Source: Gemmatimonadota bacterium (GTDB lineage Bacteria; Gemmatimonadota; Gemmatimonadetes; Longimicrobiales; RSA9). From it: DNA of 55,604 nucleotides. The position numbers were made by a program, and so were the translations under genes. This document shows positions 37,128-39,180 of the stretch, one piece after another (position 1 is the stretch's first letter; the number at the start of each line of letters is the position of its first letter). The DNA is taken from the NCBI GenBank assembly GCA_007126035.1, contig SLCC01000174.1, forward strand, positions 1 to 55,604, read 5' to 3'. A model generated the notes under the pieces. It did not search any database. It had not been told where the DNA came from and worked only from the letters and a program-made list of their open reading frames with translations.

Positions 37128-38015
37128 TCATTCTTTGGCTTTGACTTCGTCCCAGAGGCGGTCCAGCTGGGGGAGGTCGGCGTCTTCCAGGGCTATGCCT
37201 CGTTCGACGGCCATGCGTTCCAGGGCTTCGAAGCGGCGGGTGAATTTGGTGTTGGCGGTGTGTAGTGCGGTGAGTGCGTGGGCGCCGGCCAGGCGGGTGA
37301 GGTTGACGACGGCGAAGAGCAGGTCGCCCAGCTCCTCTTCCAGCGCCTGGACGGCAGCTTCGCGCTCGGGGCTGGCGTCCGGAGCGGCGTCCGGGCCGGC
37401 GTCCGGGGCGGCGCTGTGAGGGCCGGCCTGATCGGCTGATGGCGCGGTGTCGGGATCCGAGCCTACCGCAGGTGTGGTGGCCGCGCCCAGGGCTTCCATG
37501 GCCTGCCGCACCTCTTCCAGTTCCTCGGCCACCTTCTCGAAAGCGCCGGTGGCATCCGCCCAGTCGAACCCGACGGCGGCTACCCGGTCCTGGATCCGGT
37601 GCGCCTTGCTGAGGGGGTCGAGGCCGCGGGCCACGCCGTGGAGAATGCCACTGTCGGCGCCTCGCTCCCTGGCCTTCATCATTTCCCACTCGTCTGCTTC
37701 TCCCAGCCCGTAGAGGTGGGGGTGGCGACGCTCCATCTTATCGATGACCTTGCCCGCCACCTCAGCCGGGCCGAAAGCCTGACGCTCCTCGGCCAGGACG
37801 AGCTGGAAGGCCAGGTTGAGCAGCAGGTCCCCGAGCTCGGCGGTCAGGGCGGCTTCGTCGCCGTCCGCGATGGCATCCGCTGCCTCGTGCGCTTCCTCCA
37901 GGAGGTAGGGGATCAGCGACGTGGGCGTCTGGGCCGCGTCCCAGGGGCAGTGGGCCCTGAGGAACCGGACCAGGTCCATGACGCGCTCGAGGGCGTCTGT
38001 TTGCTTGTGCTCCAC
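37128..38015 (-). CDS. mazG: Nucleoside triphosphate pyrophosphohydrolase MazG
   Basis: Hydrolyses (d)NTPs to monophosphates and pyrophosphate, for nucleotide-pool cleaning or lowering of ppGpp. The 295-aa product has two MazG domains: CPWDAAQTPTSL, LLEEAHEAADAI and ELGDLLLNLAFQ in the first, and EELGDLLFAVVNLTRLAG in the second. Between them is an unusual linker of about 40 residues rich in Ala, Pro and Asp, encoded partly by 12-bp tandem repeats (37374-37416). The GTG start at 38015 has no ribosome-binding site and lies 9 bp after a -10 element, so the mRNA is probably leaderless. It is divergent from alr. Confidence 0.93.
   Translation of the reverse strand: MEHKQTDALERVMDLVRFLRAHCPWDAAQTPTSLIPYLLEEAHEAADAIADGDEAALTAELGDLLLNLAFQLVLAEERQAFGPAEVAGKVIDKMERRHPHLYGLGEADEWEMMKARERGADSGILHGVARGLDPLSKAHRIQDRVAAVGFDWADATGAFEKVAEELEEVRQAMEALGAATTPAVGSDPDTAPSADQAGPHSAAPDAGPDAAPDASPEREAAVQALEEELGDLLFAVVNLTRLAGAHALTALHTANTKFTRRFEALERMAVERGIALEDADLPQLDRLWDEVKAKE
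37374..37416 (-). repeat. 12-bp tandem repeats inside the mazG linker
   Basis: Three units on the plus strand (GGCGTCCGGAGC, GGCGTCCGGGCC, GGCGTCCGGGGC) and a partial fourth. In the mazG frame they encode Pro-Asp-Ala-Gly/Ala/Ser repeats, so copy-number change would lengthen or shorten the linker without breaking the frame. Confidence 0.7.
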
Positions 38016-38029
38016 GGGAGGTCTATACT
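38001..38029 (+). promoter_or_regulatory. alr promoter
   Basis: TTGCTT (38001-38006), a 17-bp spacer and TATACT (38024-38029, five of six matches). The expected start near 38036 leaves a leader of about 11 nt without a ribosome-binding site. The -35 lies within the first codons of mazG. Confidence 0.65.
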
Positions 38030-38053
38030 ATTGGATTTCGTCGCATATGCCAA
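38025..38053 (-). promoter_or_regulatory. mazG promoter, overlapping the alr -10
   Basis: On the minus strand TTGGCA (38053-38048, five of six matches), a 17-bp spacer and TAGTAT (38030-38025, four of six). Its -10 overlaps the alr -10 by five bases on the opposite strand, and its -35 covers the alr start codon. The expected start near 38018 puts transcription almost at the mazG GTG. Confidence 0.65.
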
Positions 38054-39180
38054 TCGCTGAAGCGCGCGCATGGGTCGAGCTGGACGCCGGGGCCCTGCGC
38101 GCAAACTATGATACGATCAGGCGGTCGGTCGTAAAGGGGACCGCCATCATCCCCATGGTGAAGGCGGACGGGTACGGGCTCGGCCTCGAGTTGGCGGTCC
38201 GTACGCTGGAGCCGCTGGAGCCGTGGGGCTTCGGCGTGGCCACTGTCCGGGAAGGCGAGGCCGTTCGCCGGTTGGGCGTGACGCGGCCCGTGCTGCTGAT
38301 CACGCCGCTGCCGATGGGCGAGGTGCAGCTGGCGGCCCGCTGTCGTCTGACGGTAGGGATCTCGTCCATGGACGCTCTGGACGCCTGGGTGGGGGCGGCG
38401 GACCGCCTCGGCGGGGAGGCTCTTGACTTCCACGTCGAGGTGGACACCGGCATGGGCCGAACCGGGCTGGACTGGCGGGAGGTCGGCGACTGGGGGCCGG
38501 CGGTCATGAGCCGGCTGGGGCCGGGTGTGAGGTGGAGCGGGTGTTTTACCCATTTCCACAGCTCCGACCTGCCGGACGAGCGGCCCGGGATGGCGCAGTG
38601 GGAACGTTTCCAACAAACGCTCGTACAACTTCCAGTACCTGCGACGGATCTGATGGTGCACGCGTCCAACAGCGCGGCCATCCTGAGATGGCCGCGCTTC
38701 GGTGCGGATGCGGTGCGGCCGGGGATCTTCCTGTACGGTGGTCACCCTGCGCCGGGGGTGGAGGGCGTGCCGGCGCCGGTGGGGGTGGCGGCGGTGCGGT
38801 CGCGACTGTTGCTGGTCCGGCAGAAGCTTCCCGACAGCACGGTGGGATACGCTGCGACGTACACCGCCCGGTCGCCTGAGCGTTGGGGGACGGTTGGGAT
38901 AGGGTACGCGGACGGCATACGCCGGGCGGTGGGCAACGTGGCGTCAGTGCTGGTCCGGGGACGGAGGGTGCCGGTGATCGGTCGTGTCAGCATGGATTCC
39001 CTGACCGTTTCTCTTCAGGATGTGCCTGATGCGAAGGTCGGGGATGTGGTGACGCTCATCGGCGAGGCTGGCGGACAGCGGATCACGGTAGACGAGTTTG
39101 CTTCGTGGGTGGGCACGATAAGCAACGAGATCCTGACGGGTCTCGGCGATCGCTTGCCCAGAGTGAAACGTGATGGGTGA
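38047..39180 (+). CDS. alr: Alanine racemase
   Basis: PLP enzyme that makes D-alanine for the peptidoglycan peptide, feeding MurF through D-Ala-D-Ala. The ATG at 38047 gives 377 aa with the PLP lysine at Lys39 (MVKADGYG). The catalytic tyrosine is at about 268 (VGYAATYTA), HFHSSD lies in the barrel, and the C-terminal domain has RVSMDSLTV. The longer upstream open frame crosses the promoter and is not used. It has almost no leader and no ribosome-binding site, and it is followed after 19 bp by a lipoprotein gene. Confidence 0.96.
   Translation: MPIAEARAWVELDAGALRANYDTIRRSVVKGTAIIPMVKADGYGLGLELAVRTLEPLEPWGFGVATVREGEAVRRLGVTRPVLLITPLPMGEVQLAARCRLTVGISSMDALDAWVGAADRLGGEALDFHVEVDTGMGRTGLDWREVGDWGPAVMSRLGPGVRWSGCFTHFHSSDLPDERPGMAQWERFQQTLVQLPVPATDLMVHASNSAAILRWPRFGADAVRPGIFLYGGHPAPGVEGVPAPVGVAAVRSRLLLVRQKLPDSTVGYAATYTARSPERWGTVGIGYADGIRRAVGNVASVLVRGRRVPVIGRVSMDSLTVSLQDVPDAKVGDVVTLIGEAGGQRITVDEFASWVGTISNEILTGLGDRLPRVKRDG

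Follow-up and report, generated by a model that had tools for sequence, protein, structure and literature searches.

Can 53 bp of DNA serve as the promoter of two divergent genes, and does transcription in one direction then exclude the other? The question was raised by positions 38001–38053 of the window, the whole stretch of 55,604 nt that was analysed, from a draft Gemmatimonadota genome of 3.88 Mb with a GC content of roughly 68%. The genes mazG and alr lie head to head at this position, separated by a gap of 31 bp. Both names, given in a first-pass annotation, were borne out by domain matches (Table 1). The named relatives of the alanine racemase were almost all Gemmatimonadota MAGs, and its ATG at 38047 was the in-frame start closest to the conserved N-terminus. 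The only Rfam match in the window was a tRNA at the window edge. The 53 bp probably form one bidirectional housekeeping promoter, with a leaderless mazG and an alr that has a short leader lacking an SD sequence (probability about 0.82). Apart from the promoter, an Ala/Pro/Asp-rich insert was observed between the two MazG domains (residues about 177–222; window 37350–37490), which was missing or unalignable in relatives, whose matches break at 176/223.

Table 1. Genes, promoter elements and predicted transcription starts at the mazG/alr locus (window coordinates).
Feature	Position	Strand	Basis or remark
mazG, nucleoside triphosphate pyrophosphohydrolase, 295 aa	37128..38015	-	GTG start 38015-38013; TIGR00444, PF03819
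alr, alanine racemase, 377 aa	38047..39180	+	ATG start 38047-38049; TIGR00492, PF01168/PF00842
shared 7-bp core TATACTA	38024..38030	.	sequence; TANNNTA kept at the locus in f1, f3, f4, f5, f7
alr -10 TATACT	38024-38029	+	sequence
mazG -10 TAGTAT	38030-38025	-	sequence
alr -35 TTGCTT (lineage form TTGC)	38001..38006	+	inside mazG codons 4-5
mazG -35 TTGGCA (lineage form TTGACA/TTGACG)	38048..38053	-	over alr codons 1-3
predicted mazG transcription start	38018 (no later than 38015)	-	inferred from -10 position; leader 0-3 nt
predicted alr transcription start	about 38036-38039	+	inferred from -10 position; leader ~8-11 nt

The first-pass annotation had described two sigma70-type promoters facing apart within the 53 bp, and every coordinate that it gave proved correct when the sequence was re-read. 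The two -10 hexamers shared the bases 38025–38029, and each -35 element lay over the opening codons of the gene opposite, as had been described. Both -35/-10 spacers were 17 bp long, and the distance from the -10 to the start codon was 17 nt for the alr ATG and 9 nt for the mazG GTG. The core reads TANNNT on either strand. The -10 elements overlap on opposite strands with their key -7T and -11A reciprocal, which is one defining feature of a bidirectional promoter. These elements and spacings are read directly in the DNA, and from them we infer that both promoters are used by the native RNA polymerase. The exact transcription starts were placed by the usual 7-bp distance from the -10, and the predicted sites, 38036 and 38018, were 18 bp apart. 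The same rule returned the leaders of the annotation, about 11 nt for alr and 0–3 nt for mazG. No SD 4-mer was found within 20 nt of the mazG or the alr start, in agreement with the reported absence of a ribosome-binding site on either side. Compared with the E. coli consensus, the plus promoter was weak (-35 3/6, -10 5/6, total 8/12) and the minus promoter moderate (-35 5/6, -10 4/6, total 9/12). The plus promoter was missing from the promoter scan list because only 8 of its 12 consensus positions match.

The seven-letter core most likely lets RNA polymerase start either way. The AT-rich TATACTA would act as a single melted site in a GC-rich region, and sigma region 2 could engage either strand because the 7-mer reads TANNNT on both. 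The orientation would be set by the -35 elements, TTGC for alr and a TTGACR-like sequence for mazG, each located in the opposite gene among its first few codons, and transcription would start at two points about 18 bp from each other. For mazG, the message would begin 0–3 nt before the GTG and be translated leaderless, and the alr message would carry a leader of about 8–11 nt without an SD sequence.

An mRNA was regarded as leaderless when its 5' end lay within 0–5 nt of the start codon. The mazG gene had a TANNNT in the expected range of about 10–15 bp before the start (TAGTAT, 9 nt, GTG) and lacked an SD sequence. No start other than its GTG at 38015 preceded the conserved N-terminus, and a longer mazG frame is impossible because the -10 TAGTAT opens with the in-frame stop TAG. 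It is thus well supported, from these letters, that mazG is leaderless or near-leaderless, with a predicted leader of 0–3 nt. In alr of this genome, the -10 was 17 nt from the start and outside the expected range of about 6–10 nt; this gene is predicted to have a short leader without an SD sequence and is not leaderless. The claim of leaderless starts is thus supported for mazG and unsupported for alr of this genome, which appears leaderless in relatives of families f3 and f7 (f1 is the family of the window, f2 and f3 belong to the same order, and f4, f5, and f7 are placed elsewhere in the class, in different families or orders). In f3, the -10 TAGAAT of alr also held an in-frame stop, and the GTG at 9 nt was the only N-terminal start. 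In both f3 and f7, both genes start 9 nt from the -10, which gives a nearly symmetric pair predicted to be doubly leaderless.

A published signature of leaderless genes is a TANNNT about 10–12 bp upstream of the start codon (PMC3160421), which mazG fits at a slightly greater distance. Among 485 genes of this genome, 21 had a TANNNT 6–10 nt before the start, with 24 expected. An initial excess at 7–9 nt in 142 genes was gone in the 485, and a genome-wide leaderless habit was rejected. Since there was no excess, the lineage showed no general tendency towards leaderless genes in this test. A literature search for leaderless genes in Gemmatimonas or Gemmatimonadetes found no paper.

The symmetric pattern TTGNNN-(16–18)-TANNNTA-(16–18)-NNNCAA occurred once in the 3.88-Mb genome, in the mazG/alr gap. 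The reversed-pattern control gave two sites per direction in the same genome, so about 1–2 sites are expected genome-wide by chance; in one given 31-bp gap, the expectation is of the order of 1e-5. Gene surveys of the genome covered 60 sampled stretches. Among 83 divergent neighbour pairs in 728 kb, mazG/alr was the only one in which a TANNNTA core had an in-frame start 5–20 nt away on each side. Off-locus matches in two relatives, G009 and G010, were rejected as instances of the same device and resemble a DtxR-type box beside a metal-binding ABC protein gene. At these loci (L211, L212; G009:C3, G010:C116), TTTAGNCTAACCTAAA formed a DtxR/MntR-type palindrome adjoining the start of the metal-binding ABC transporter protein gene, and the divergent partner was a carboxypeptidase-regulatory-like/TonB-type gene.

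Lack of conservation of the TATACTA core and its spacing in relatives had been named as grounds for refutation; the comparison found both kept in f1, f3, f4, f5, and f7 and did not refute the description. In an uneven sample of mostly uncultured organisms, mazG was divergent to alr in 95 of the 116 different sequences upstream of alr that were compared across the phylum, and the shared core recurred with both -35 elements at mazG/alr in these five families of the class. The core of f1 and f3 was TATACTA, TAGAATA or a close form. The alr-side TTGC was 17 bp from the core (18 in a few) in nearly all core-keeping relatives, whereas the mazG-side TTGACR was usually spaced by 18 bp, compared with 17 in this genome. 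A stricter pattern, in which the mazG start must be exactly 9 nt from its -10, was found at the locus in 17/21 f3 genomes, 5/12 f1 genomes, and 0/121 f2 loci; its reversed control gave 5 matches in 154 genomes. A looser pattern detected the same device in f4, f5, and f7, where 20 of the matches were checked one by one; alr was present in 20/20 and a mazG-like protein opposite in 19/20. The device was conserved over alr identities of about 40–60%. The closest relative at the site, G006 (L021) of another genus, had the same geometry with ATG as the mazG start. The shared core was absent across the whole family f2, in the same order as the window, and the core is therefore dispensable.

Several relatives deviated at this locus. 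Upstream of alr in f2 (e.g. L126, L136, L101, L146), the place of the shared core was taken by a conserved element resembling GTTCTTGGCATCTTT and lying immediately ahead of ATGTCAAC of alr, which is reminiscent of Bacteroidetes TAnnTTTG promoters. In L048, L052, L057, L060, L068, L078, and L080, a conserved 8-codon frame (ATG ATA GCN NNN CNC GYC GTC NNA TGA) preceded alr. It starts about 13 nt past a -10 of the TATCTT/TATGTT type, ends in an ATGA overlapping the alr start, and resembles a nearly leaderless upstream frame whose translation is coupled to that of alr. In the f7-like loci L046, L047, L234, and L235, the divergent partner was reduced or diverged; in L046 and L047, the frame 9 nt from the shared -10 was without the first MazG domain, and the double 9-nt geometry was kept. 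One draft genome, G033, held three copies of the alr/mazG promoter (C82, C109, C116), two of them near contig ends, as paralogues or from a mixed bin. In L144/L215 (G051), a tandem repeat (GCCACTGAGCACACGCAGCGTGC...) was located in the alr N-terminal region, between the promoter and the conserved protein start.

The start codons of both genes shifted among the families, and the -35 elements kept their 17 or 18 bp to the core despite these shifts. The mazG start was locked at 9 nt from the -10 in most of f1, in f3, and in f7, and was an ATG at 18–19 nt, mostly with an SD sequence, in f4 and f5. Where the 7-bp rule places the mazG transcription start, no purine was conserved, which counts against the predicted site. 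The alr start was found at 9, 10, 12, 16–18, and 24 nt over the relatives: GTG (f3) or TTG (f7) at 9 nt, candidate GTGs at 10–18 nt (f4), and ATG at 16–18 nt (f1) or 24 nt (f5). Since the core was kept while the start codons moved, it is under selection and is not an accident of -10 symmetry. Codon choice was also unusual under the -35 elements. The mazG Gln at this position was encoded by CAA in all of the f1/f3 loci with a reading frame across it (23/23), compared with 32/251 (12.7%) elsewhere in these genes, and the alr Ser was encoded by TCA in 17/17, compared with 16/365 (4.4%). These counts overstate significance because the relatives are not independent by descent, and the rare-codon contrast is large despite this shared descent.

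It was considered whether the alr promoter (TTGC-17-TATACT) works alone, with the mazG-facing -10 a by-product of symmetry and mazG transcribed from elsewhere. The inherent near-symmetry of -10 elements (PMC10268837) fits this explanation, as does the persistence of an alr-side promoter-like element without the mirrored A in both f2 and the TATCTTG clade (L048 and others). However, the mazG-facing TTGACR keeps its 18-bp spacing to the core from family to family though the alr start moves, the rare TCA is retained beneath it, and the mazG start is locked at 9 nt from TAGTAT in f1, f3, and f7. Another mazG promoter would have to lie inside alr, where the scan gave one weak site (38135–38108). 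An alr-only promoter is thus unlikely.

The remaining alternatives are less probable still. Translation of alr from a longer mRNA could use GGGAGG (38016–38021) as an SD sequence, by way of a short TTG frame (38031–38060) that overlaps the alr start; the GGGAGG does lie 9 nt before the TTG at 38031, and the 9-codon frame ends with TGA at 38058–38060. However, GGGAGG is part of the promoter spacer and precedes the predicted alr transcription start, and this very improbable reading was rejected because the sequence is not conserved in relatives. The elements could also be functionless promoter-like letters that arose by chance in a short AT-poor gap, given that consensus matches are common in general and that the plus hexamers alone were below the standard scan threshold. 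This is scarcely credible for a sole genome site positioned exactly in the 31-bp divergent gap and conserved over such distant alr proteins; among the sequences compared, conservation in relatives is the strongest evidence against chance.

The preferred reading, one bidirectional promoter, leaves the question of exclusion. Two polymerases are unable to occupy the site at once. From this, the first-pass annotation had concluded that D-alanine supply and nucleotide-pool cleaning would be mutually exclusive, a proposal that was unsupported. All five E. coli bidirectional promoters assayed initiated so seldom at the basal level that neither direction held down the other; weakening one direction left the other unraised, and the partner was repressed only when one direction was strongly activated (PMC12825309). 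With basal activity in E. coli too low for competition, the best reading is compact, low, constitutive expression; by this analogy, the two housekeeping genes likely share a single melting site that provides such output and is not a switch. A wider proposal can be made tentatively. The locus may be a class-wide, vertically inherited Gemmatimonadota bidirectional promoter, near-palindromic and doubly leaderless in f3 and f7 (start, 9 nt, TANNNTA, 9 nt, start), in which the -10 doubles as a start-fixing in-frame stop, the N-termini are written by the opposite -35, and selection holds the outputs of mazG and alr at a constant ratio by way of the common melting site.

Judged by its sequence, the mazG/alr arrangement is real, conserved over much of the class, and a clean example of a known promoter type with no new mechanism. 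The families form a natural series of SD-led mazG (f4/f5), leaderless mazG (f1/f3/f7), and absent core (f2), which lets the effects of core sharing and of leader loss on expression be asked separately. A literature search for a promoter link between alr and mazG found no paper. Bidirectional promoters are known mainly through genome-wide start-site maps. Like the TA-led leaderless genes surveyed previously (PMC3160421), mazG has a TANNNT at a short fixed distance before an ATG or GTG and no SD sequence. Unlike the distance of ~12 in that survey, whose text does not name Gemmatimonadota, the mazG -10 is 9 nt from the start, with its first T 15 nt upstream and a predicted leader of 0–3 nt.

As defined by Warman, Grainger and colleagues and described in PMC12825309 and PMC10268837, bidirectional promoters have overlapping -10 elements on opposite strands, with starts 7–25 bp apart and both directions served by one fragment. 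The commonest start spacing is 18 bp, because -7T and -11A then coincide between the strands (PMC10268837; PMC12825309). The mazG/alr locus resembles the promoters described there in its shared TANNNTA, predicted starts 18 bp apart, reciprocal -7T and -11A, a -35 on each side, and a divergent pair with two predicted mRNAs. In contrast to them, mazG, and alr too in f3 and f7, is predicted to be leaderless with its start 9 nt from the -10, the -35 elements lie within the opposite genes, and a single locus, known here from sequence alone, is conserved across a bacterial class. Furthermore, the E. coli examples are often regulator/target pairs, whereas mazG and alr encode two unrelated housekeeping enzymes.
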